Part shown: piece by piece, positions 2,372 to 51,872 of the stretch
How positions within the stretch are numbered: position 1 is the stretch's first letter
How the letters are laid out: each line of letters begins with the position of its first letter
Assembly (NCBI GenBank): GCA_015680905.1
Contig: CM027385.1
Location: forward strand, 82,109,501 to 82,173,500
Direction: 5' to 3'
DNA: 64,000 nt
Origin: Coptis chinensis
Lineage: Eukaryota > Streptophyta > Magnoliopsida > Ranunculales > Ranunculaceae
Made by a program: the position numbers and the translations under genes
Notes under the pieces: generated by a model
Database searches by the model: none
What the model saw: only the letters and a program-made list of their open reading frames with translations
Told to the model about the DNA's origin: nothing

Positions 2372-3946
2372 TATGACCGAGTATGGTATCAATTTTTTTT
2401 CTGTGTTTGTGGCCTTGTGGGAAACCGAATCTGGAACTGTTATATAAGACCCATCAATGATTATGATAAGGGCCAATTTCACGACAGTTGATATTGTCTC
2501 CCACAACTATAAGTCTATAACACAGGCATATAAAATGAAAAAATGTGAACGAACTTCAGACTTTTCACCTATCATGGGTCACGGAAAGCAGAAAGTTTAG
2601 ATTTTTTTTACATTAAATAGTTCTAAACAAAAATCTGTCATCGCACTAGCTTACACGACACTGCTTAAGGGTTCTAAGTTAAGGTATTCTCGGTTCTTTT
2701 GAATTTTGTTAACAAATTTTTCTTTATGTGCTAAGTTAAAAAAGGGGTGACTGGGAAAGGTGGGTAGGGGAACAAAATGGTTTCTTGGTAGTTTTTCTCT
2801 TTCTCAAATCCTGCTATTAAATAGGTCATTTATGTCCTTTGACATTGCAAAATCAAGCGTGGAATTTCTTACCGTGTTGGTTTTGTTGGCCAATTAAAGT
2901 TTTAAATCAGTCTGTAAGAAAATTACAATCATCACATTAGCAGAAGATGAACATTGGAAGAATAAGAAAGTAGAGAAGAAAAAAAAAAAGGAAAAGGGAA
3001 ATAATACTATAGTTGTGAACTGTGAATATCAACGTCAAACTCACAATGTCTAATGCATGCGTTTGTGGGAACATTGTCACACCAAAAAGGTGTAGTTTAC
3101 CAGCACAATTGTTGTTTCATTCGTACTTCAGGATGACTGAAATTTTCTGACTAGTTCTGAAAAATCGAAATTCCAATATATTCCTACTAAATTTCAAATT
3201 TTACAATCATCCGTAGTAGTATAATGTTATTTCAATTCCATTTCGTTTTAATTAAAAACCAAAATATTTGACGGAATTCTGCAATTACATTAGTAATCAC
3301 AAATTTATTATCCCCATGTTTATATGCAAGTAGAGTACATAAAAACATGATGATCACCGAGCGGAAGCAACAACTCCAATGTGCGTGCTTAGCTAGTAAA
3401 AGAAGTCATGAAAGGATAGGTTATACAATATAAATATATAATCTATAAGAGTTTGAATCGGTTCCTTTAGAAAAAAACAATGAAAAAGAAAAAAGAAAAT
3501 CTCACAAGCTAATAAGTTTCCTAAAATAGGGCCAGGTATAGAAAGAAAATGACATTCCAACGCCGTCAAGTTAAAGGAGGTATTACCAATAAGAGCGTGG
3601 GTAAATTATGGCACTGGTGTTCAAATTTATGAAATGGCATGGCACTTCATATCTTGTAATCTCATACAGGCTTTGACACATAAATTATTCTTATGCATGC
3701 ATACCAAAGTACCAAACAACGTGTTTCCTTCTTGCAATGATTCTTCCTTCTTGCAATGATTCTTTTGACCAAGTTCAATATTCTTTAACCACAGTTTTAC
3801 AATATAGGTTAATATAGGTTGTTAAGTTAAAGAGTGAGTAGCAATTAATCTAATTAAAGGTGCAGATAGAAAATGACATGCCATCCATTTTGGTTGGTGT
3901 TTGACGGTTTGTTTTGCTCAATTGCACACTGAGCTGAAAAAATATC
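2372..3946. other. Intergenic between broken and intact ATP-PRT copies
   Basis: No gene supported. It holds the distal duplicated promoter block (about 2795-2865), about 870 bases absent from the upstream copy, and the proximal duplicated block (about 3750-3946). A short direct repeat (CTTCTTGCAATGATTCTT, twice) lies near 3729-3765. Confidence 0.6.
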
Positions 3947-4438
3947 AGTGTTCTAAAAAACGCTAGGCGGCAGTTGGGCTGTGGGAGAGCGCTTAGGGCG
4001 TAAGCCTTCTAGGCAGTGTCTAGACGGATTAGGTGCTAGGTGATTTTTTTTTATAATATATATAATAATTCGTCCACACATATACTACAAGAAATGAAAA
4101 AAATCATTTACTATAACTCAAAAAATAAACACAAACAAAGATATACTTATTACAAAAATGCGTAATAATTGAGGAATATTGACTTCATATAAAAACATAC
4201 TCTTTGTTATAGTGACATATAATTTACATTAGACTTAAGTCTTTTAAACTCATTCAAATCTTAAGCCTACACGAGTCTTTATTTTTCAACATTTAATCAT
4301 TCAAAAAAAAAAAACTTAGTTGGATCGCCTAGAGGCCGCCTAGTCAGTCCACCGATTTTTTAAACGATTAGGGCCTAAGCAAGTCGGTTGAGCACCGCCT
4401 AGCGCCTAGAGACTGCCTAGACTGATTTTTAGAACAAT
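3947..4438. mobile_element. MITE (TGTTCTAAAAA...CGCCTAG family), copy 1
   Basis: About 492 bp, no coding capacity. It begins AGTGTTCTAAAAAACGCTAG and ends with the inverted form (ATTTTTAGAACAAT), with GC-rich CGCCTAG-type arms inside both ends and an AT-rich middle. The flanks AAAAATATC (left) and AAAAATCAT (right) look like a decayed 9-bp target duplication. A second, closely similar copy with a clear 9-bp duplication is at 20981-21482, so the family is probably a non-autonomous Mutator-type MITE. This copy sits 180 bp upstream of the ATP-PRT start codon and is absent from the truncated duplicate, so it inserted after that duplication. Confidence 0.7.
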
Positions 4439-15469: not shown

Positions 15470-15951
15470 TGATAATGATAACGAATTTTACAAATAATTA
15501 GGGTAATTTGCACAGCAAGTCTTTTCTGAATTTGTTTTTGTTTTTTTTGTTAAGGTCTAACGCTTGTTTAAGAATTGAAAGTGAAAGAAAGGAGGGAGAG
15601 TTCATGGGTTTGTTATGGGTGATTATAATTATACAAACGACCGGTTGGGCTTTGGGCCTTTGGCTATTTGTTTTTTAGTCTCATTAACCTATTAAATATT
15701 CAAAGACACATTTGTTGATAATGATAACAAGTTTTACAAATAATTAGGATAAGCTGCGCAACAAGTCCTTTCTGATTTTTTTTTGGTTAAGGTGTAACGC
15801 TTACTTAAGACTTGAGAGTGAAAAAAAAAAGAGAGTCTACGGATTTGTTATGAGTGATTAGAATTATACAAATTGACCGGTTGGGTTTTGGGCCTTTGGC
15901 TATTTGTTTTTTAGTCATATTAACCTATTAAACATTCAAAGACACATTTGT
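15470..15951. repeat. Tandem duplication of about 240 bp
   Basis: Unit 1 is 15470-15715 and unit 2 is 15716-15951. Both begin TGATAATGATAAC(G/A)A and end CAAAGACACATTTGT, and both contain GACCGGTTGGG.TTTGGGCC. They differ by scattered substitutions and poly(T) length, so this is an old tandem duplication. It ends about 290 bp before the left end of the Mutator-like element. Confidence 0.8.
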
Positions 15952-16239
15952 CCATCTTTAATGGTTTTGAACTCAAAATAAATGATAAATGATAATTTTG
16001 TAAGGACAAAATGAGAAGTAAAAAAAACGTTGGCTTATTAGAATATTTTTTATTAGTTTTTTTTTTCATACTATTTTTTTTGTTGATTATATTCTCACTA
16101 TAGTTGTAAATTTTTTTAGAGTGCGTTAGTGAAAGTTTGCTAAAAAAATTGGGGGATGCGAGTCCTTATAGTTTAAAATTTTTTCTAAGTAATTAGTTAT
16201 GTGATAGTGCAGCTTTTCTAATCTTAAGAGGTGCAACCG

Positions 16240-16295
16240 GAGTAATACTACACTGACACAGAAACTTGACACAGTCAACCAACACACTGAGGTGG
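16240..16295 (+). repeat. Left terminal inverted repeat of the MULE
   Basis: 56 bases from GAGTAATACTACACTG to ACACTGAGGTGG. It matches the reverse complement of 23350-23405 except for three positions near base 25 and one near base 41. Preceded by GTGCAACCG. Confidence 0.85.
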
Positions 16296-16505
16296 ACGCT
16301 GACTTATCAAGTTCCATCTAAGCAAAAGTCAACCCTAAACCAAACCCTTTTTTATTTGTTTTATTTTTTTATTTATTAAACCCTTCGTCTCTCATCTCTT
16401 CTTTTTCAAACTCAAAAAAAAAAAAACACCAAATAACACCTTAACTTATTGATCGTAATATACCTGTTTTAATTATTTGTAATTGTTTACTTCTTTCTTT
16501 TAGGA

Positions 16506-19130
16506 ATGGAGCAAGAAATTTCTGAATTTGACAATATAAGTGTAGAAATGCATGAGGATGAGGGTATCAATGATAAAGAATTGGAAGATACAATTGATGT
16601 TGATGTGGGTATGGAGAATGAATTTGCTCAAGAAGAAAAAGTGGGAGATCCGAAAATAGGAATGGTGTTTGATAATCTTTGAAGGATTGTTTGAATATTA
16701 CACTAAATACGGTAGTGAGAATGGGTTTCCAATAAAGAAAAGGTCTTCGTCGGGCGGAGATGATGGGGTGGTTCGATGGGTGCTTTTACATGTTCTCGAT
16801 CGGGCAAGACAGAGAGCATTTCAAGAAATGCTTTCAAATTGCATCTAGTTACAAAAAACCCAATGTAATGCGAAGCTTAGAGTCGCTTTAGATTCGATGG
16901 AAAGTGGCGGGTGACATCCGTAGTACTTGATCATAATCATGGTTTGAGTCCAGAAAGTCACGATATTTCATAAGAAATCGTGAAATTGAACCGACGCGTG
17001 TCAAAAGGAAACTTGAGATAAATGATCAAGCCCTCATATTCGCCAAACAAAAGTTATTCTTCTTTGGCGGTAGAAGTGGGTGGACTTGATAAACTACCGT
17101 ATTTGGATAAAGATTGTCGTAATTATGTTGAGAAATCCAGATGGTTAAGGCTTGGCAATGGGGATGCTTTACGGTGCTCGTAATTACTTAGCAAAAATGC
17201 AAGCAGATAATTCTAACTTCTATTTCCTCATGGATTTAGATGACAAAGTGGTAGAATAAGAAATTTATTTTGGGCGACGCAAAGGAGCAGAGCAAAGATA
17301 TGAGGAATTCGGTGATGTGATCACGTTCGACACAACTTACTTAACTAATAAGTATGACATGCCGTTTGCTCCTTTTGTGGGTGTGAATCATCACGGTCAG
17401 TCAATCTTGTTGGGTTGTGCTTTACTATCACGTGAAGACACCAAGACTTTTTCTTGGGTTTTTCAGACTTGGCTTGGTTGTATGGGTGGTCGTGCTCCTA
17501 ATGCAATAATTACAGACCGAGACAAAGCCATGCAAAATGCTATAGAAATTGTGTTTCCGAATGCACGCCATAGGTGGTGTATATGGCACATCATGAAAAA
17601 GTTACCTCAAAAATTACGGGTTCATAAGAAGTACGAGTCAATTAAGTTTGCGATGCAACAAACTGTTTATAATTCCTTAACAACCACCGAATTCGAAGGG
17701 AGATGGAACAAGTTTATTGAGAAGTATGATCTTAAGGAAAATAGATGGTTAGATGATTTGTATAAGGAGAGTCATCGTTGGGTTCCTGCATTTGTAAAAG
17801 ATATTTTTTGGGCGGGAATGTCAAGTACTCAAAGAAGTGAGAGCATGAATGCATTTTTTGACGGGTATGTCAATTCAAAGACTACATTGAAACAATTTGT
17901 CGAGCAATATGAGAATGCATTACGGAGCAAGGCTGAGAAAGAAAACCAAGAAGATTTTAATTCCTTCAACTCCCGGGTCCCATGTATTACTCACTATAAA
18001 ATTGAGAAACAATTTCAGGATGCTTATACAACTGCAAAATTCAAGGAGTTTCAGAAGGAGTTAATGGGGAAGCTCTACTGTGATGTGTCTTCGGTTAAAA
18101 AGGAATGTGGCATTGAGGTGTATGAAATTTCTGAAGATGTTATGGTTGGAGAGGTAAATTTGCAACTTACTTTTACAGTTTGCTTCAACCCAGATGACAG
18201 TGACATCAAGTGCAATTGTCGCTTGTTTGAGTTTAGAGAGGAATCGTATGTAAACACATTATTGTCGTATTAATTCAAAAAAAGATTCAAAATATACCTG
18301 AAAAGTACATTCTTCATCGATGGAGGAAAGATGTAAAGAGGTGTCATACAAAGGTTAAAATCAGTTACTTTGATTGGATGCAAAACCCTAAGAATGAACG
18401 TTTTGATAGGATGTGTAATGCCTTCTATGAAATAGCAGACTTGGCAACTGATAATGAAGATAAGACAAATATTGTTATGAAGTGGATTAATGGCTTGAAT
18501 AATGAACTAAAGAAAGGTGAAGGAGCATGTGCGAGTAGTCAGCCAATTACATGTGGAAGTGAGCAACCTACTGCATGTGAAACTAGTGGTAATGTTCATA
18601 CTACAACTAAGGATAATGGCCTTATTCGTAGTCCTCAATCAGTTCGTGGTGCAGGTCGTCCACCTTTCAAGCGGAAGACAAGCAAGCTGGAACAAGCTGT
18701 TAAAAAGTTGTAAGAAAAGAAGAAGAAAGAGGGAAGCGAGAACAAGTCGTTAAAATGAACCAAGGAAAGAAGAAAGGGGTGAGCACAATTGAAAATACAA
18801 TGAATGATTTAGATTTGGAGAAGGTTTGCAAACAACCGTATTGAAATGTTTTTTTTTTAATATTTGATTTTACTTTTTTTTTTTAGTTATTTGCTCATTT
18901 GTATGAATTTTACTTTAAATGTAGGACCCAATTGGTGGATCAGAAGTTATGGAGTCAGGCGAGACACAAGAAAGCATTGCATTAAAGGTTTATATTTATT
19001 ATAGTTTATTGCTGTTTATTATTATATTATTTTTTGAAGTTGTTTCGATGAATTGGATTTATATTCTTGGTACGTAGGATACAATTGGTGGAGCATAACT
19101 TATGGAGTTTGGTGGAAGCATTTAGTAGGC
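16506..19130 (+). pseudogene. Decayed FAR1/FRS-like gene (MULE transposase domain)
   Basis: FAR1-related proteins are domesticated MULE transposases acting as transcription factors; related active MULEs encode similar proteins. An acceptor-like TTTTAG directly precedes the ATG at 16506. The acidic N-terminus runs to 16681, where one extra T gives CTT TGA. Other frames then show the FAR1 DNA-binding domain (FEYYTKYGSENGFPIKKR), broken by several frameshifts and in-frame stops (about 16970, 17020). From about 17311 to 18251 a long frame is intact: FDTTYLTNKYDMPFAPFVGV, ITDRDKAMQNAI, HRWCIWHIMKK and RSESMNAFFDGY, the DDE-type MULE domain. In the SWIM zinc finger (CNCRLFEFR) a 2-base insertion near 18238 shifts the frame; it resumes in 18378-18713 with a GRPPFKRK tail. 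Two related short 3' exons (DPIGGSEVMESGETQES at 18925; DTIGGA at 19079) follow. Confidence 0.85.
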
Positions 19131-19235
19131 ATAAATGAAGAATGAGAGTTAGTCGAAGCAAACCGCTTCTTTTACTCTTAGTTGTTTGTATATTACGGAA
19201 TGACAAAGATAAAAATACCATTTTTATGTCCCTAC

Positions 19236-20368
19236 TTATGGTTTCTTTCTCTTGCAGGTTTTACTCAAATTTTTGCTATATTGGGTGATCATTTGATTCA
19301 TATGTTTGAGAGCTATTTTGGCGGGTTGAAGGCGCATATGTGACATGGTGCTTTTGTTGGGGTTTGTGATAGGACTTTTAGGGGAGTTTTGTATCACAAA
19401 GTCAAGTGTCTTTGTGATCACATTCTTTTTGTAGCATGTCGAGAATATTGTATTGGCTAGAGTGGGTTTTAATCTTTTTGTATGTTGGTTAAACATTGGA
19501 AACAAAGTGTAACAAGTACTCCATGTGAGGATATTGATATAAATGAATGTTTCATTGATTTTTTTTTTAGTTGTATCATTGATTTGTTTTAGCATGATTT
19601 TTATGTCCGAGATCTTTCTCGCCTTCTAAGATCCTTTTCGTGTCCGACTTTCTTTAGTGAAGCCTTTCCCAATTTAGTAGGATCCTTAAGAAGTGTTTTG
19701 GAATCTTTCTTATCTTTAGAAACACTTCCAGTTTTTTGGACTCTGGTGCGTATTTAAAAACCATTACCACTGTGTAATATTATGTTCATTTGGATGGTCT
19801 CAGTGCGTATTTAAAAACATTACCATTGTGTAATATTATCTTTCTTTGGATGGTAGAAACCTTAAACTGATTTCCCACCACAGGTAGTGATTAATTGTGA
19901 ACAGGAGAACCACATAAATAGAAGACTTACTGACTATTGTACATTACAGGTGATACGGTTATACGCAATTGAGTAAGTGGAATTGGCTTTTGAAGTCGAG
20001 TTTTGCCCATGGAGACCTACTCAAAAACGAGAGAAAGTTTCTCTCATTGAAAAACTTTTTGATCAACGCGATGACTTGACCATGCAACAAGTTGCAGCCT
20101 GCGGGTTCGGCCCAAGGAGGAGAGGAAGGGGTGGCGTCCCCCGCAACTTTACTGAGGGCAAGTAGAATCGAACAAAATAGGCGGATGAATGGAAAGGTCC
20201 GAGTCTGCGACAATGCTTGTCAAGACAGAATAGTCATTGACACTTGGGAGTTATTCAGATTGGGCTGATTGGCACCTTGGATATAGTTGAATAACCTATG
20301 GAATCCAAGTTTAGTGGCCTTCTCAAAAGAAATGTCACGAACAGAGCGACATCCATGCAGAATCTCAG
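19236..20368. other. MULE interior, 3' of the transposase-like gene
   Basis: Probably the 3' UTR of the FAR1-like gene, then unidentified sequence. A diverged tandem pair (unit about 58 bp, GTGCGTATTTAAAAAC...GTGTAATATTAT) lies at about 19745-19860. A GC-richer stretch at about 19977-20165 has an open plus-strand frame of 62 codons that I cannot assign; it may be another captured fragment. Confidence 0.4.
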
Positions 20369-20893
20369 AAAGTCTAATCGCAAAAATCAGATTCAAGTGA
20401 ACAAAATTTGTGAATTGGGGTGACTCAATTCCATTACTTAAGATGAATACACTTAATCAAGTATCAATTCAGAATTAGGACATAAAGCTCAACTTTCCAT
20501 TTTGCTATCACGTAAGCCCAACATCGAGATCCAACAAGGATTAGTAGTCATATGAAACTGGAAACTCTCCACCTTTATACGGCTTAAAACTAAAATTAAA
20601 ACTCTAACCCAACAACAAGAATTAGAAATCCTCTTTTTCCCCTATATATAATAACCCTTTCTTTGTTACGTCATACATAAGCAGTCTGTAAAGTCTAATC
20701 GCAAAATCAGATTCAGTGTGAACAACTGTGAATTGGGGTGACTCGATTCCATTACTTAAGATGAATACACTTAATCAAGTATCAATTCAGAATTAGGACA
20801 TAAAGCTCAACTTTCCATTTTGCTATGCAGAAGCCCAACATCAGTATCCAACAAGGATTAGTAGTCATATGAAACTGGAAACTCTCCTGAATA

Positions 20894-21650
20894 CAGGGCC
20901 GGCCCTGAACTTTGAGGGGCCCAAGGCGAGTTTCTTAAAATGGGCCTATATTATTGAGAAAAAAAACAAGTCTTTTATACAGTGTTCTAAAAATGCTAGG
21001 CGGTAGTCGGGCGGTGGGAGAGCGCCTAACGCCTAGACTTTCTAGGCAGTGCCTAGATGGATTAGGCGCTAGACAGTTTTTTTCCTTAATATATAATAAT
21101 ACACACATATACTACAAGAAATGAAAAAAATCATTTACCATAACTTAAAAAATAAACACATACAAAAATACTTATTACAAAAATACATAATAGTTGAGAA
21201 ATATTGACTTCATATAAAAACATACTCTTTGTTATAGTGGCATATAATTTACATTAGATTTAAGTCTTTTAAACTCATTCAAATCTTAAGCCTACACGGG
21301 CTTTTATTTTTTGACATTTAATCATTCAAAAAAAAAAAAAAAAACTTGACTGGACCGCCTAGACTCACCTAGCCCGTCTAATCGGTCCGTCTAGACCCGC
21401 CTAGTCGGTCCACCAATTTTTTAAACGACTAGGGCCTAAGCGAGTCGGTTGGGCACCGCCTAGACCGAATTTTAGAACAATACTTTTATACGATGGGATG
21501 TGGGCCAATGTTTGAGTGGACTGGACTGAACAACCTTGAGTCCTTTACATGTGGTCTAGTGGGTATAAAATTATACTTGGGGGCCCAAAATTTAACCAAC
21601 AAAAAGTGGGGGCCCTAAGCCGCCTAGTTGGCCCCTCCGAGCCGCCCCTT
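20894..21650. mobile_element. hAT-like insertion (CAGGGCCGGCCCTG end)
   Basis: 757 bp inserted in copy 2 of the 321-bp duplication. The left end is CAGGGCCGGCCCTGAACTTT and the right end is rich in GGCCCC...GCCGCCCC on the opposite strand. TGAATA flanks both sides (20888-20893 and 21651-21656), a partial target duplication. The CAGGG start suggests the hAT superfamily, but the right end is not a clean mirror, so the class is uncertain. It is itself interrupted by the MITE at 20981-21482. Confidence 0.5.
20981..21482. mobile_element. MITE (TGTTCTAAAAA...CGCCTAG family), copy 2
   Basis: 502 bp, closely similar to 3947-4438. It starts AGTGTTCTAAAAATGCTAGG and ends with the inverted TTTTAGAACAA. 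A perfect 9-bp direct repeat, CTTTTATAC, flanks it (20972-20980 and 21483-21491), placing the family with Mutator-type MITEs. It has no coding capacity. It lies inside the hAT-like insertion, so it is the youngest layer of this stack. Confidence 0.8.
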
Positions 21651-21887
21651 TGAATAATTCGAGAACCAACAAGAATTAGAAATCCTCTTTTCCCCTATAT
21701 ATAATAACCCTTTCTTTGTTACGTCATACATAAGCAGCAAACTCACAAGCCAAGAAAAAAAAAGTCACAAACAAACTCACAACCCTAGCTTTCTATTCCA
21801 GATGTTTTTCCTTTGTTTTCAACAATAAAATATAGTAGTATAGTAGAAGATATTATCATGTGTACAATAATGTAAAGAGATATGAAG

Positions 21888-22004
21888 ACATTCCACATTT
21901 GAGTTGGAATACAACATACCTCTCCTTCAAACTGATATAAAGACCCAGAGGATGCCTAAAGATGCTCCCATATTTCTGGCAAGCCTCGCCAATAGTTTTC
22001 CTGC
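21888..22004 (-). other. Coding-like island of unknown origin inside the MULE
   Basis: On the minus strand about 22004 to 21900 reads [20 protein letters not shown] and then [10 protein letters not shown], with normal amino-acid balance. A second island on the same strand (about 22352-22245) reads LSNDSTRIETPAWRYIDLGH and then WETFSSLSTESRQDYGIF, following a possible TTGAAG acceptor. I do not recognise either. They bracket the tRNA-like gene and may be exons of another captured gene. Chance open frames remain possible. Confidence 0.3.
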
Positions 22005-22031
22005 TTTCAAGTAATATACAAGAATGTCTAT

Positions 22032-22122
22032 TGGATTTTGGTGGATTCGAACCACCGTCTCTTGAGATGTCGTAGAGATGCACTCAGACTCTCAAGCGCT
22101 TTACCGTTTAAGCTAAAAATCC
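22032..22122 (-). tRNA. tRNA-like gene with oversized anticodon loop
   Basis: The minus strand folds as a cloverleaf: acceptor GGATTTT/AAAATCC (7 bp) with A at position 73; TA linker; D arm GCTT/AAGC with an 8-base loop containing GG; anticodon stem CTTGA/TCAAG; 4-base variable loop AGAC; T arm GGTGG/CCACC with loop TTCGAAT. The Pol III A box (TAGCTTAAACGG) and B box (GGTTCGAATCC) are intact. The anticodon loop is 26 bases instead of 7 and lacks a T at position 33, so no anticodon can be assigned. It could be an intron-bearing tRNA, an unusual tRNA-derived RNA or a SINE-like tRNA head. No T-run terminator follows closely. Confidence 0.5.
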
Positions 22123-22850
22123 ACTTAGGTATACAAAAAGAACATCTACACATACCCAAGGATCAATTACCAAAAAAATATTTGCATTCAAGCAGCATAA
22201 ACGTGCAGTATAAAAAACTTGAAAAAAAACACACAAACAAACCATGAATATGCCATAGTCTTGTCTTGATTCAGTAGACAAACTAGAAAAAGTTTCCCAA
22301 TGACCCAAATCTATGTATCTCCAAGCTGGGGTTTCTATTCGAGTAGAATCATTAGAAAGAACCTTCAATCATAAAAAGTCCAATAGTAGAAAACCAGTTG
22401 ACTAAAGACCAATATGACAGGAAACAAAATTGTCAAACATAAAGTTAAACTTCAACCATCTCAAGCAAAAAGAGCATATTTCTGCTGGTGTAGAGCACCT
22501 GAGCTCACAATCAAGTTTCACATTTATTTGACAATAGTTTACAATGTCCAAACTTTTTCAGACATTTTTTCAAACAGTTCATGTACCCTTACTGCTTTTA
22601 ATTTCTGTCTTTTTGAAGTATGTATGCAAAACTTTTTTCTCCAATGAACTAAAAATTACACAGACGCAAGGATTATTCTTGACCAGAATTAGTTATCTTT
22701 CTCGAGAGACCATTTGAGGTCTCATCCATCAAACGGTGGGGCAAACCTCTGTGCCACATTTTATGACTAGACTGTTTATAGAACAATTTGGCTAGTGGAA
22801 GTGAAAGCCAATAGAGAAAAACACACACGAACCAAACTAGAAAAAATTAC

Positions 22851-23230
22851 CTGTGCAAGTTTGCTACTTGTGTATCCCACCAAACTAGAAAATTTCCTTT
22901 TGCCAGAATTAACATTCATGTCTTCAGTATCGACAAAGCCAACAGTATGCATCTGGGAAAAAAAATAAGAAAAAAAAACAATTGATTGGATACATCAGTG
23001 CAATAGGAGATTAATTCTTCAGATAAAGTTATGAAGTAAATAGCTTTATAACACAATTTTATCAACAATGAAGAATGGTATATAAGGAACTTACAATAGA
23101 GTTCACATTAACAATGCGGCTTGGGGAGCCTCTAATAAGAGACGGTAAAAGTAATATTGAGAGTAATGTTGGTGACAGATGGTTCTTCATACCCATCCTT
23201 TGAAAAACGTTGTGGTTCTGATCACGAAGA
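22851..23230 (-). pseudogene. Captured fragment of a FEY-type short-chain dehydrogenase gene
   Basis: Two exons with the intron kept. The upstream exon (about 23230-23095) reads HLSPTLLSILLLPSLIRG then SPSRIVNVNSI and ends in ATT/GTAAGT. The downstream exon (22952-22851, 102 bp) reads MHTVGFVDTEDMNVNSGKRK then FSSLVGYTSSKLAQ with a CCCAG acceptor and CAG/GTAATT donor. The second has the same length and place as exon 5 of the complete paralogue at 49078-49179. In the upstream exon about 14 bases are missing after GAAGAA, so the frame is broken there. No start, cofactor-binding exon or 3' exons were found. It lies antisense to the transposase-like gene and directly inside the right terminal repeat. 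The sequence is closer to canonical FEY than to the paralogue at 47-52 kb. Confidence 0.8.
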
Positions 23231-23349
23231 AAGGTAAGGGATGGGAGAGAAAGAGCGAGAAGACAAGGGCTTTGAGTTTTTTTATCAAAGAAACGAAAAG
23301 AAAAATGGTATGTTTGACTTTTGATTACGTGGACATAACACGTCACTAG

Positions 23350-23405
23350 CCACCTCAGTGTGTTAGTTGACTGTGTCGATATTCTGTGTCAGTGTAGTAT
23401 TACTC
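23350..23405 (-). repeat. Right terminal inverted repeat of the MULE
   Basis: 56 bases, reverse complement of 16240-16295 at 52 positions, followed by the target copy ATGCAACCG at 23406-23414. Confidence 0.85.
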
Positions 23406-24445
23406 ATGCAACCGCCCCCACACACAACCCCTATATATATCCATCTATGATGTTACAAAGTTAGTTTTTGATTTTACACTATCTTTTTTCCATTGGACAA
23501 AAATTTCCCATATATTAGAAGACACTTTTTAGTTTAAATTTCATAGGCAATCAACAAAGTGATCAACATGCATAGAACCTTTCATTCATTTTCACTTCCA
23601 AGAGCTTTCATGGCAAAATCTTCCGTACAAGTACATCCATTGCTCTCTTTTGTATTTTTTTCTTATTAATATTTTTTGGAAGGGGAGAAAAGTTTATACT
23701 TTCTATGCATGCTTATATATTTCAAGGAAAAAAACCTAAAAAACTCATTTTCCATATGTGAAATAAACACGCCCTTAAGAGGCTATGTGAACTTTACCAC
23801 ATATGCATGTCTGCAATTGCTATGCATTTCCTAAAAACAATGCAACCATTATAATTGTTAGCAATATATATACTTCAAAATTTAAGGTGCGGGAGATGCT
23901 CTTAAGTCTTACCTAACAAGTATGGATTAATCAATCATGATTAAGTAATTAAGGGAAGGGAAATTACTAGTCAATGTCTACATATAACAAAATATTAATA
24001 AGCTAAACCAGCAAATGTCTCCTGGTCAATTTCTTAAGGCACAACCCTCACCAATGACCATATCCAAATTGGTTCAACAAACATCTTCAACTAGCACCTA
24101 GAAAATTGGTTCAACAAACATCTTCAACCAGCACCTAGATATTAAAGTATGACTACGAGTGATCGATTTAGTTGAGTACATTTTGATGGTGTCCAGCATA
24201 GCAATATGCACTCCTTGGATATTCCATGCAACGATCTCTAACAAAGTTTCTGTAAACGTGGCAAATCCTTATTGGACCAACAACGTCGACAGGCATGCTT
24301 TTTAAAAAATTCTTCCGACATCTGTCAAAAAACATACGAACACAAGATTTTGTCAACTTCACCAAAAGTCAAAGCTCATTGGTCCCTTTTCCAAAATGCC
24401 AAACCCGAAAATTCTTCAATATCGACCGAAATCAAAATCAAAGTA
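23406..24445. other. Intergenic
   Basis: No gene supported. A tandem pair of about 37-38 bp (AAATTGGTTCAACAAACATC...AGCACCTAGA) lies at about 24065-24140. Confidence 0.5.
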
Positions 24446-25102: not shown

Positions 25103-28100
25103 ATGGTGATGGTGAAAGCAAATGTTAATGAGAAGAGTGATGAAATAATAAGTAAGAAACAAAAGGGGCCAACATGGGTTTGGGTTCTTGGAGCTGTTTT
25201 AGCAGTTTTATTAGCTGTTTTTGCTTCAAAGTATTCTTATTTTGATCAGAATAACAAGTCTTGTGATTGTAAGGTATACCTTTTTTTATTAGTTTTTGTT
25301 GAATTTTGTTGTAGAACTTGTTTTTATTACTGTTTTCTTTTGTTTATGACTAGAATTAAGCCCGAGTTGTGATGAAGTGAGAATCTAATTGCTTAATGTA
25401 GGATTGACTATAGAATGCATTATGAAAAGTCAAGTAGGCAATGAATGGTAGTTGATAACTGTGTATGAAGTTTTGATAGTAGCTTGTGAGTCGATGAATA
25501 TATGTTATAGTTTTGATTTTGATTACTGTTATTGAACCCTGTGTTTGTGTAGGATTCACGTAAATATACTGGTATGGTAGAGGATTGTTGTTGTGATTAT
25601 GAGACGGTAGATAGTCTGAACAATGAAGTACTAAATCCATTGTTGCAAGAGCTTGTTACAACTCCATTTTTCCGGTATTTTAAGGTATGCTCTTATCATT
25701 TTGTTATTAATATTATATGTTATCCAAACTGAGTTATTGGTCTTTGTCGTAATTAGCTTTTTGCTATCCTTTCTAAGAATTACTTGTAAACACATACTCG
25801 CTCTTGTAGGAGGGAGAAGTGCTTATAGATATACTTGATATAAGTCCATATAACATAAATTACTTAGCAAGTAGAGTCAAGAGATTCTGAGGTTCTTTCT
25901 TATTTAGTTTATATCATTGGTATTTTGAGTGAACATTTTCAGTTGATCTGCCACTGAAATATTTTGTGATCCCTATTACAGGTCAAATTGTGGTGTGATT
26001 GTCCTTTCTGGCCTGATGATGGTATGTGCCGTCTGCGAGATTGCAGTGTCTGCGAGTGTCCAGATAATGAATTTCCTGAACCATTTAAGAAGCCGTTTCT
26101 AAATAGGCTTTCAAGTGATGATCTAATTTGTCAAGAGGGAAAGCCGCAAGCTACTGTTGATCGTACTTTAGATAGCAAAGCTTTTAGAGGATGGGTAGAT
26201 ATAGACAATCCATGGACGAATGATGATGAGACTGATAATGGTATACACTATCTTAGTTTTCTTTAGTTACTTGGCTGAATATTATTGTTCAAGGAAAAGT
26301 TAAGATGTTGTGTAGTGCTTAATTTCTTTGGCTGTAGTTTGAGTTTTAATTAACATCTAGGAACCACGAAGCGGATTTGTTTTTGAAATTATGTACTGCT
26401 GAAGTCCTTTGTGGATTGTTATGCACTTTAGCTAGATTTGCAAACAATTTTCTATTGAGATTTTGTCAATGATACCTATGTTTTGGTCAAGGATATTCAT
26501 CTTGGATCATTCTCAATGTTTTTTTTTTTATCAGGTGAGATGACATATGTAAATCTTCAACTGAATCCTGAGAGATACACTGGTTATGTAGGTCCATCAG
26601 CTAGAAGAATATGGGATGCTGTGTACACCGAGAATTGTCCAAACCGTGAGTCATCCCTTTCTTATTTTTTTGCTGGATTGATATTATGCGTAAGGAATGC
26701 ATTTTATTATATTTTGGTGAATTCTATTATTTCTTCATCATTGTATTTAATAAAATGTTACTATGTATAGTCAATATATAATTCTTATATAATATTTTCA
26801 TTAATGAATATGACTTTCGTTTTTGAGTTATTTACAAAGGTGTTACACTAAACATTTGTTCACTGAGACTAGGATGGAGTATTGCATTTTCTTTGGACTA
26901 CGTCTTTGAAATATTATACTTCGTTCAAATGTCGCATCTGGCATCTTTAGAAAACTTTGATGAATCCCTGATATATCCCACTGAGGCAGGAGTTTGACTA
27001 CCTTACTGATTTCTTAACAAATTTCTGGTGTTTTTCGTAGTGTTTTTTTTTCCTTGTCCAAAATTTGTTACTTCATGGTTGATAAGGACACAATTCAATT
27101 GTTAGCATTTGTAATTGTATTTACAATAGATTATAGATCTTGTTGCTTTACAGATTTGTAGGTAGTATAGATTCTAAGAAAGTATACTTAGTTTGCAGTA
27201 GTTCCTTCCATCATCTTTTTATAAGATAACAATATGAGTTTATTAGTACTTTTACTTTTCTGTACTATTGTGAATACTGAAGGTAGTTACTAATTGTTTT
27301 GATTAGCACAATTAGTTCTACTTGCATCAGTGTAGCTGTATAGTTAATGTTTGTTGAGATCCAACTTTCTGTGCAGACCCATCTGAAGCCTTTTGCCAAG
27401 AGAAAAGAGTATTGTACAAGTTGATCTCTGGTCTTCACGCTTCCATCTCCGTCCACATAGCTGCTGATTATCTCCTTGATGAAGCTACCAATTTGGTTGG
27501 TTATAGACTTCGTAGACACAGTTTTAAACTTTCTTATCATAACTTTCTACTTATCATAAAATGTTGTTTTCTTTTTCCTTACTGTTTGGGACTTGGGAGT
27601 ATGTGGTAATTCAGAGCCATTTTCTTTGATTCTGTTATTTGTACGTTTTCGACTAACGGGACCTCTGTTTTCTATATCTCCATCACCATATTGTTTGTAT
27701 TACTATATTGAACTATATTAGTATGACCAGTTGTAGATAACTGATACAGTTTCTGCTACTCTATCGTGTGCAGTGGGGTCAAAATCTTGAGCTGTTGTCT
27801 GACAGAGTGCTTAGATACCCAGATCGCGTTAGGAACTTGTACTTCACATATCTCTTTGTCCTAAGAGCTGTGACAAAGGTGAGTGTCAATTGTGACGTTT
27901 AATTTTTTTAGACTTTGAATAGGTTCTCATATTAGCAACTATTTGTGTATGTGTGTTTCAGGCGGCAGATTATTTGGAACATGCCGAATACAGCACTGGT
28001 AATCCAGCAGAAGACCTGAAATCACAGTCCTTAGTAAGACAACTTCTTTACAATCCCAAGTTACAAGCTGCGTGTCCACTCCCCTTTGATGAAGCCAAGT

Positions 28101-29018
28101 TATGGCAAGGGCAAAGTGAGCCTGAGCTGAGGCAGCAAATTCAGAATCAATTTAGAAACATCAGGTGGCGTTCCATGTTACCATATTATGTTCTGTCAAA
28201 TATGTTAGCCAGATTACTTGTCACTTGTTTCAATTCTTTATATACAATGATAAAATCTATCCTTGAAATGCAGTGCATTGATGGACTGTGTTGGGTGTGA
28301 GAAGTGTCGACTTTGGGGAAAGCTTCAAGTTCTTGGTCTTGGCACTGCACTGAAGATACTTTTCTCTGTTAATGGGCATACTAATGTGGATCAGCCTGTA
28401 AGTCCTTCTATACATATTTAGTTGATGTGGTGCCTGTCTTTTGGTTAAGATTAGCTGGTTTTGTTTTTTTATTTTTTATTTTGAAGTTTTTAGAGAAAAG
28501 AGAAATACTTAAGGCTTTGCGTTTAATGTACGTAATGGAGATGGTCGTGCTCCTAATAGATTTTATTTACTTGTTTATTTATCTATTTATTCATATTTAA
28601 ACTTCTTATTTACCCTCTCCTTTGATTAGTGTAGCATGTGTGCTACCGATCAAAGAATATGAGAAGTGAAAGTGTGTGTCTTTGCTATCGATGATGAAAG
28701 GCTAACACGTTGTGGACAATATCCACACTTTCAATAGCAACTAAAGATTGATTTTTTCCTCTAATTTTTAATCCTGTTTGTAGTAGAAGATTGGTTTTCT
28801 AACATGTACAGTTTACCATTCAGTTACAGTTGCAAAGGAATGAAGTGATTGCACTAGTCAACCTTCTCAACCGACTCTCAGAGTCTATTAAATTTGTACA
28901 TGAAATACATGAAATGGATCCCGCAATTGAAAAAACCGTGAAGGATGGAGTGTCTGCACACAGTGGAGAGACCAGCACATGGAAACGCTTGTTGAAGTCT
29001 GTCATTGGGCCACAGTAA
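25103..29018 (+). CDS. ERO1: Endoplasmic reticulum oxidoreductin 1
   Basis: FAD thiol oxidase of the endoplasmic reticulum that re-oxidises protein disulfide isomerase, passing electrons to oxygen. Nine exons: 25103-25273, 25553-25684, 25982-26240, 26535-26645, 27377-27495, 27774-27878, 27962-28164, 28274-28397, 28812-29018. They join in phase to 476 residues, the usual plant length. A signal-anchor helix lies at about 25-41 ([17 protein letters not shown]). The outer shuttle pair is CRLRDC (Cys117, Cys122). The substrate and FAD core includes [17 protein letters not shown] and [15 protein letters not shown]. The FAD-proximal active site CVGCEKC is at 372-378. No key residue is missing. The start is the first of two nearby ATGs (MVMVKAN) behind a TATA box at 24930. 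Confidence 0.95.
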
Positions 29019-50100: not shown

Positions 50101-51872
50101 AGTGGCTTTAGTTAGGGGATGTGCCGACGTCTCACTTCACGTGGAATTTGTCTCCCCACTCTTTTCTTTTTTATTAGATAGAAGAAGATATCCTATCGCT
50201 CAAGTTTCTATCCACATAAAAAATGCATGTCATCAATCGTCATACTTTAAAGATAATAGTAAGAGAATTGGATAGGACAAAGAGCTAATTTATAATAAAA
50301 AAATACATTTAGATAGAGAAGAAATAAGGAATTACCACAGAATTGACATTGATTATGCGTGAGGAAGGAGTTCTGAGTAAAGATGGTAAAAGTAGCAGAG
50401 TAAGTAGTGCCGTTGCAACATGGTTCACATGTATGTGTTGTTCAATCCCACCATAAGTAAACTTCTGTCCATCTAAAAAGAAAACCAAAAAATTTAGAAA
50501 GGATGGCAACACATATTTTCAAGCCTGATGCACGTTCGGTTTGGGAGGTATCTGAGTATAATTTTTGGTGCCTTTTATGGCCTCAACCGGCCTCGCAGAC
50601 ATAATATTCGGATATCCCTCAATTATTGTATTATGTACAACAGCATTTCTTTAGGGGGTACATCTTAAACTCTCATTTTACAGGCCGGTATACCTTCCAG
50701 ATTACAGAGTCCTGCATTGTTGATTAATATATGCAGTGGTACTTCACGTTGTTTCCATTGATCAGCAAAGCTTCGAACAGATGAAAAGGAAATAAGATCC
50801 AACTCCATAACCTACACATAGAGAACCTCTGTTAACAAGAGAAGTAATAGGGAGAATGTAACATCTTCAAAGAGTTGCACCATAATGCACTCCCTCCAAA
50901 GGGAGTAAAAAATTCTGTGTTTCTGGGAGTGTTATCCTATATAAAAGTTTTGCTTCTTATCATTCTTGTGTCAATTTTACCATAACACAGGTAATAACAG
51001 TTGCTCGAAATGGGACAAGTATGTATAATGAGCACATCACCTCTATATTTAGGACTCTTCCATTATGTGCCTCTTCTTTCCATATAGATGCAAGTTCTTT
51101 TGCAGCCTTGACATTCCTGCAAGCCATGACAACATGGGCTCCAGCCATAGCGAATTCCCTGCCATTCACACCATCTTGTAAGTTTATCATTGTATCATCT
51201 GCTTTGCCAGAGGTCAGAGGAGCACTCCAACAATTTAGTACAGGAAATATAAGAAGACCGAAAGAATTAAAGCGGAGATATTCTAAATGTTTCTGATCTA
51301 TGATTACATTACCAGTATATACATCCGTTTTTTGTCCTATTAATCTCTTTGTCATCGTCCTATTAGTATCTAAGCCTTTTTTATCTATGATACCTCACCT
51401 AAATATTCAAATGATTTTCAATAATTTACCACTTCTTCATAGGTTCAATGCTAAATATCTGACACCAACACTCAAGTCAAGTTCATTTATACAGCCTTTT
51501 CTTAGGCTCAAGACGAAAAACTCAACATATTGATTAGATGTATGGTCAGTGTATGTCGGCTTTTGAGTAACCATATGCACCATGAATCCATGATCAGCTA
51601 ATATGAATATCTCAATCCTTATAAGCATTACACACAATGAACAAATTGACTGTAGGACAGGTAAGAAGTAATAATTACTTGGCTGTGTGAAGTCCAATAC
51701 CACTGGTAGAGCCAGTGACGATGACATAGAGACCAGATAAATCCTTGAATTGTAGAAGAGAAGAAGTTGGTGGAAGATAGTAGGTGATGAGCTTTTGAAA
51801 TACAGTCTCCTTAAGTATCTCCCATGACCTTACCAGTTCCCAAATGTTCATCAATTCTGTCTTCCAGTCCAT
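47177..51872 (-). CDS. Short-chain dehydrogenase/reductase, FOREVER YOUNG (FEY)-like
   Basis: Eight exons in coding order: 51679-51872, 51041-51158, 50694-50811, 50336-50472, 49078-49179, 47968-48066, 47669-47717, 47177-47382. They join in phase to 340 residues. The N-terminus (KTELMNIWELVRSWEILKET then VFQKLITYYLPPTSSLLQF) is the FEY signature. The SDR fold has cofactor motif TGSTSGIG (53-60), NNAG (135-138), catalytic Ser188 in NVNSV, and YGSSK (Tyr216, Lys220). FEY is linked to leaf positioning and meristem development in Arabidopsis; the enzyme substrate is unknown. The segment after NVNSV (GHHCGVVEPQYWNSK) departs from canonical FEY, so this is probably a diverged paralogue. An imperfect TIR element sits in the intron at 48067-49077. 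A (CT)n tract lies directly before the start codon. Confidence 0.92.
48191..48870. mobile_element. Inverted-repeat element in an intron of the FEY-like gene
   Basis: Left end AGGCTCTGTTTGGCTGCAAG, right end GCCAAACAGTCTTT, a common plant MITE end type (hAT-like). The interior is very A-rich with several poly(A) runs. Nearby direct repeats CACCACGTTAA...TTCNTGACAATGAACACC at about 48149-48191 and 48744-48795 complicate the borders, so the limits are approximate. Confidence 0.45.

Follow-up and report, generated by a model that had tools for sequence, protein, structure and literature searches.

Mutator-like elements (MULEs) of the Jittery group (group 36) encode a transposase with a FAR1 domain at the N-terminus, a MULE core and a SWIM or CCHC domain at the C-terminus, and have inverted ends of 39–292 bp; in the available part of the classification, the target duplications of this group are given as 8 bp or are not indicated, no host cargo is entered in the table for its plant sub-group, and FAR1 is also present in half of the members of one Hop sub-group (PMC6446971). 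Pack-MULEs hold host-gene fragments between MULE ends. The usual explanation of how MULEs capture genes is that chromosomal DNA is copied. The element described here occupies positions 16240–23405 of a 64,000-nucleotide stretch of the Coptis chinensis genome (C9:82109501-82173500; the window hereafter). Its family shares with the Jittery group the domain plan of the transposase and the inverted ends, but it has target duplications of 9–10 bp and carries host cargo; unlike a Pack-MULE, it also holds the remains of a transposase gene. It is very probably a decayed MULE of formerly autonomous type and FAR1-MULE-SWIM (Jittery-type) architecture, with captured fragments of a short-chain dehydrogenase (SDR) gene and of a spliced SOUL heme-binding gene.

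The stretch 16240–23405 is a MULE. Positions 16240–16295 and the reverse complement of 23350–23405 were identical at 52/56 bases (92.857%), the 73-nt terminal arms showed a complementarity of 84%, and local alignment of both ends gave 73% over 164 columns (E 3e-23). The flanking 9-mers, GTGCAACCG (16231–16239) and ATGCAACCG (23406–23414), agreed at 8/9 positions. When the host genome (935.6 Mb) was searched with the left 73 bp, at least 40 matches were obtained (E 1.3e-29 to 7e-14; 40 of 116 candidate places scored). Twenty-nine further loci were retrieved (L numbers below denote retrieved loci), which with the window copy made 30. Sixteen of these, window copy included, could be paired end to end, a few end positions being placed by hand from matches to the terminal inverted repeats; the remaining 14 had no full second end inside the retrieved stretch, L037 having broken pieces of one. 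The results showed that 10 of the 16 paired copies have perfect target duplications of 9 or 10 bp, two have imperfect ones (8/9 in the window, 8/10 in L009) and four have none (L012, L019, L020 and L027). Because the terminus recurs genome-wide, with many target duplications, the inverted ends exceed chance. The marks of the MULE superfamily were all found, namely dispersed copies with common terminal inverted repeats, a target duplication of 9–11 bp (10/16 perfect, together with an empty site) and a MULE-type transposase (PF10551, 1.5e-38, in a broken frame). An initial annotation of this DNA had proposed the 52/56 ends and the target duplication and had suggested a search for other copies of the 56-bp terminus; the first two were reproduced, and other copies exist.

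The left flank (window 15940–16239) is a high-copy repeat (660 candidate places, of which 40 were scored, with 41 matches listed), which resumes to the right of the element as CCCCCACAC...CCATCTAT. The right flank is single copy, save for one partial match of 53 bp, and the left flank was therefore taken for the empty-site comparison. Ten copies of the left-flank repeat were retrieved, one of which (L047) lay on the wrong side and was uninformative. The result showed that all nine informative copies run uninterrupted through the insertion point, GGTGCGACCG or AGTGCGACCG being followed directly by CCCCCACAC or by a variant differing by one base; L054 at the empty site is ATACAACCGCCCCCACAC. The order in the window is GGTGCAACCG, element, ATGCAACCGCCCCCACAC, and the duplicated target, with its one variable base, is GGTGC(A/G)ACCGCCCCCACAC. 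Taken together, these reads indicate that the element was inserted near the end of another repeat, where 9 bp were duplicated and a single base of these later changed.

A MULE transposase domain was detected by Pfam in the open stretch 17260–18270; the open-reading-frame pieces 16506–16679 and 18237–18710 matched no family, and neither FAR1 nor SWIM was recovered by Pfam from the pieces of the window copy. In the relatives, FAR1 (PF03101) was found in L011, L018 and L031, the MULE domain in L009, L010, L011 and L031, and SWIM (PF04434) in L009, L010 and L031, with FAR1 N-terminal and SWIM C-terminal as in the Jittery group. FAR1 and SWIM together with inverted ends imply a Jittery-type plan (PMC6446971, as far as its available part goes), and by domain architecture the family appears to match the plant Jittery group. 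The transposase domain and the FAR1-type affiliation named in the initial annotation are thus borne out. Reading frames were scanned from stop to stop, with pieces of at least 130 aa and introns not modelled, in the 10 transposase-bearing copies among the 16 paired elements, out of 18 transposase-bearing loci in all. None of the 10 complete copies, window copy included, had the continuous transposase frame of an autonomous MULE, and the longest open piece was 467 aa, in L031. Since no scanned copy has a continuous frame, and the window gene is split among frames, the element is not a source element today, and the term 'source-type', applied to it previously in the present tense, does not hold. 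A transposase piece of L031 had no sequence match among solved structures. Differences from the window copy were distributed about evenly over the codon positions in most of 17 copies, and a lean towards third positions was seen in the long-branch copies L031 (10/14/24 at positions 1/2/3), L033 (6/11/21) and L036 (8/17/23). This pattern would fit a gene formerly constrained and now decaying, the signal being modest.

The SDR fragment aligned in antisense to its parent L038 (C1:3020900-3023100) at 90% over 681 columns including gaps, which corresponds to 614/639 (96.1%) ungapped with 44 gap columns, and the alignment traverses an exon, an intron, an exon and an intron of L038. As the fragment retains introns, its capture took place at the DNA level. 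This is the antisense host-gene fragment noticed before. SDR-type stretches also lie 28 kb from the element, at window 50324–51741 (minus strand); they were rejected as the parent, two short stretches being just 69–76% like L038.

The initial annotation had missed a second host fragment, SOUL, and its intron-free junction. In the parent, L042 (C1:34314500-34318600), a reading frame of 212 aa is spread over two exons separated by a GT-AG intron of 2946 bp; in the captured fragment, CATAG is followed directly by GTTATTC at the splice point. Alignment to the joined exons of L042 covered 14 SOUL copies, of which three (L011, L018 and L036) stop short of the junction. The result showed that the parent intron is absent in 11/11 junction-spanning copies (window, L009, L010, L019, L024, L016, L017, L027, L032, L037 and L041), with no insertion of more than 20 bases there, and that these copies are 93.2–96.7% identical to the joined exons outside gaps. 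One ancestral capture is common to all copies, so the 11 are not independent events. Within L042, a second SOUL exon (48% aa) shows an AG acceptor, the only border seen, at the matching place, and the paralog L055 (C5, 45–50% aa) has an intron at the identical residue and phase, with borders GTAAGG/CACAG (read by eye). These paralog introns at the matching position suggest that the SOUL intron is old. The exact loss of an ancestral intron that marks a processed copy is thus seen in all 11 spanning copies, while the paralogs keep the intron, and the exact exon–exon junction combined with the old parental intron makes passage through spliced RNA the most likely origin of the fragment.

Two further loci were considered as parents. 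L041 (C6:87969800-87971600), presumably a MULE-derived locus, was rejected as the SOUL parent, MULE sequence flanking its SOUL sequence on both sides. L040 (C8:86570400-86572200), a possible source of the interior of L016, resembles portions of L016-type elements and of L022 but has no match to the window's SOUL piece.

How spliced sequence reached the element may be explained in more than one way. There is about an even chance that an ordinary SOUL retrocopy, made by retrotransposon enzymes, was later captured as DNA or landed in a MULE. This is a common process that accounts for the exact splice junction, but no free-standing intron-free SOUL copy was present among the 30 matches of the genome search (42/42 candidates scored), which comprised L042 (3), L055 (2), L041 (2) and MULE copies (23), and inspection by eye revealed neither a poly-A run nor a flanking duplication at the SOUL borders; a retrocopy since lost may have existed. 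Direct filling of a MULE gap by reverse-transcribed SOUL mRNA, with genomic DNA as the source of the SDR piece, would mean that one element used both capture routes, and is put forward tentatively. A vanished intron-free allele of the parent could conceivably have been the source instead. It is very unlikely that exon 1 and exon 2 were captured separately as DNA and joined by chance without RNA: MULEs do acquire multiple fragments, but the join lies exactly at the GT-AG borders of the 2946-bp intron in all 11 spanning copies (one ancestral event), and a chance join of this exactness is hardly to be expected.

For the reading of the element as a decayed, formerly autonomous-type MULE with an SDR and a spliced SOUL capture, the following observations count on the other side. 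The third-position lean was clear in just 3 of the 17 compared copies, and over all copies the polymorphic columns numbered 86/93/94 and the informative ones 22/27/37 by codon position. Because no copy among those examined is intact, former autonomy is deduced from domain architecture. Of five L038 pieces, two gave hits to successive parts of PF00106 that fall short of the curated cut-off (6e-4 and 7e-4) and three had no Pfam match, nor did the captured SDR exon in the window (37 aa). The SOUL piece of the window (19962–20216) likewise had no Pfam match; PF04832 (SOUL) was detected in the relative L016 (1394–1777, 9.9e-22), and the naming of both fragments thus rests on parents and relatives. 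Both SOUL borders lie inside coding sequence, and the lack of a visible poly-A run or duplication and the conceivable vanished allele, both mentioned above, belong here as well.

Family composition was scored by alignment to the window copy within the retrieved stretches of the 30 loci. Transposase sequence was found in 18 loci, 12 being without it. The whole window plan, including the SDR cargo, is present in L009, L010 and L019, but these three have neither the nested insertion nor an extra ~318-bp copy. SOUL without transposase occurs in L016, L017, L027, L032 and L037, and SDR sequence lies in or near the same five loci, for L032 beyond the retrieved end. Beta-amylase (GH14) pieces were detected in two transposase-less loci (L014:2847–3215 and L015:2045–2413; PF01373, 1.2e-15 and 4.4e-16), and a WD40-like piece in the transposase-bearing L013 (2113–2376; best PF25174, 8.6e-07, well under the curated cut-off). 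With ten cargo stretches given to Pfam, a host fragment was identified in at least 9 of the 18 loci with transposase, namely SOUL in the window copy, L009, L010, L019, L024, L011, L018 and L036, and the L013 piece. The transduplication of host sequence proposed initially therefore stands, with SDR and SOUL, whereas the stated rarity of transposase together with cargo was overstated, given this count and the host-derived ULP sequence described, in the part of the report available, in MuDR-like and Jittery-like grapevine elements (PMC2528002).

A classical Pack-MULE, that is, a carrier of gene pieces without transposase, is scarcely credible for the window element: the SDR and SOUL fragments do lie inside its MULE ends, and the five transposase-less SOUL loci, L014 and L015 fit that type, but a transposase gene is present, and the window copy, L009, L010 and L019 hold transposase and cargo together, at which this explanation fails. 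A domesticated FAR1/FRS host gene with repeats around it by chance is refuted by the multiple copies, inverted ends, target duplications, empty site and broken frame, although its three domains equal the set described for FAR1/FRS proteins in the available part of PMC8599713.

The relatives L011 and L018 match the left part of the window copy (96–99% in the compared parts) only up to 20167, and L016-type copies match the right part only from 20165. These two derivative classes break at most 3 bp apart inside the SOUL fragment, each keeping the opposite part. The formation of the transposase-plus-cargo form by joining of two halves at ~20166 was considered and rejected; SOUL runs unbroken there as in L042, and the joined form is thus more likely to be ancestral for the SOUL fragment. 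In L016, 357-bp inverted ends (501–857 and 3381–3737), 96% complementary, extend into captured SDR sequence.

A course of events can be proposed as follows. Acting on the inverted ends, a transposase would have inserted the element into the tail of a different repeat and thereby duplicated 9 bp of target. Its lineage would have acquired host DNA several times, the SDR piece being copied from the chromosome with introns retained, and the SOUL piece very probably from spliced RNA, perhaps as cDNA in transposition-gap repair or as a retrocopy taken up. Transposition would have spread the cargo, which lies antisense to the transposase, in copies that keep the transposase as well as in shorter relatives that have none. 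The tRNA-like gene would be an old passenger; the ~318-bp duplication and the nested insertions would be later additions to the window copy.

Features of the element and its borders in the window
Feature	Position	Strand	Basis
Left target-site duplication, GTGCAACCG	16231..16239	no strand	End pairing and empty site
Left terminal inverted repeat (first 56 bp 52/56 against right end)	16240..16332	+	Self-comparison, genomic copies
Transposase gene remnant, frame broken in window copy; end set by comparison with L009	16506..18843	+	Open-reading-frame scan, Pfam, relatives with FAR1-MULE-SWIM
Open stretch with MULE transposase domain PF10551	17260..18270	+	Pfam, 1.5e-38
Captured SOUL heme-binding gene fragment, with an exact exon 1–exon 2 join and no parent intron	19965..20451	-	Alignment to parent L042; Pfam in relative L016 only
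First copy of ~318-bp tandem duplication, absent in L009, L010 and L019 (approximate limits)	20409..20688	+	Self-comparison, relatives
Second duplication copy, split by nested insertion (approximate limits)	20727..21737	+	Self-comparison
Nested insertion (773 bp), absent in L009, L010 and L019	20889..21661	no strand	Relatives
Inner insertion (502 bp), 9-bp duplication CTTTTATAC, ends TGTTCTAAAA	20981..21482	no strand	Relative at window 3946-4438
tRNA-like gene, cloverleaf with extended anticodon arm	22032..22122	-	Rfam RF00005, folding
Captured SDR gene fragment with introns	22589..23234	-	Alignment to parent L038; Pfam on parent exons
Right terminal inverted repeat	23314..23405	-	Self-comparison
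Right target-site duplication, ATGCAACCG	23406..23414	no strand	End pairing and empty site

The tRNA-like gene, already named in the initial annotation, scored 59.5 bits with RF00005; ARAGORN without introns found no tRNA in the window. On its own it folds as a cloverleaf whose anticodon arm is long (-30.7 kcal/mol, z -3.9). It occurs in 17 of the 30 loci (split in L013), 12 of the 17 being transposase-bearing, and 12 of 14 tested loci passed the Rfam threshold, L013 and L031 failing. The gene is probably an old passenger. It is unlikely that selection maintains it for some service to the element, such as that of an RNA polymerase III unit. The number of loci and the clean cloverleaf would agree with selection, as would a block of ~140 bp that can be aligned although its flanks cannot. 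The gene is 87 to 100% identical to that of the window copy; with all sites counted, noncoding element DNA had the higher identity in every comparable copy but L019 (9 of 10), and with CpG sites excluded the gene had the higher identity in 5 of 10. Among 16 sequences (14 distinct) no pair was altered on both sides, and the anticodon identity is not stable, ARAGORN with introns returning Gln, Ile, Cys, Arg or Val by copy and nothing in others. Eight further copies were folded, of which L025 did not form a cloverleaf and L012 lacked the anticodon arm, and no T-run terminator was found close behind the gene in the window copy. The divergence and pair-counting tests thus gave no clear support for selection. 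No host origin of the gene was found among 40 of 94 candidates scored, the context being viewed for some only, and no report of tRNA genes in MULEs was found in titles and abstract starts of the open-access literature. In L039 (C5:4143100-4145400), two inverted tRNA-like blocks flank sequence from the 3′ side of the transposase, and the paired tRNA-like matches at C3:118843689/118844998 and C42:34274/35892 may resemble this arrangement.

The younger nested insertions claimed previously were confirmed, as 20889–21661 is missing from L009, L010 and L019; the tandem duplication of ~318 bp had gone unmentioned, as had the break in the transposase frame. The relative of the inner insertion, at window 3946–4438, is 81.5% identical over 493 columns and rich in CTAGGCGG-type sequence. 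The element ends 1.7 kb upstream of a probable ERO1-like gene, whose putative start, judged by ERO1 N-termini, is an ATG at 25103; a PF04137 match follows at 27923–28297.

Related elements of this family show transposase, cargo and tRNA-like parts in varying combinations. Since transposase-bearing MULEs with cargo are known, the unusual part, and the addition to what had been noted for this locus, is the exact spliced capture of SOUL; no report of spliced or RNA-derived capture by MULEs was found in titles and abstract starts of the open-access literature. In an animal survey, as described in its available part, captured intronless copies of multi-exon genes were discarded to exclude retroduplicates, and such cases may consequently be under-counted (PMC8277862). 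If the origin proposed here is true, class II elements can also take up and spread RNA-derived sequence. The transduplicating MULEs of grapevine and the ULP-carrying Kaonashi elements (KIU) also contain host sequence in elements classed by, or carrying, genes of their own (PMC2528002, PMC13317346), but their cargo is different, and the captures described in the available passages on introns are exonic plus intronic, none with an exact splice junction. Spliced sequence at a repaired break, as proposed for SOUL, has been described in mouse zygotes, in which breaks were repaired with reverse-transcribed spliced mRNA; unlike the present element, those were experimental breaks in an animal and, in the available part of that report, involved no transposon cargo (PMC4516963).

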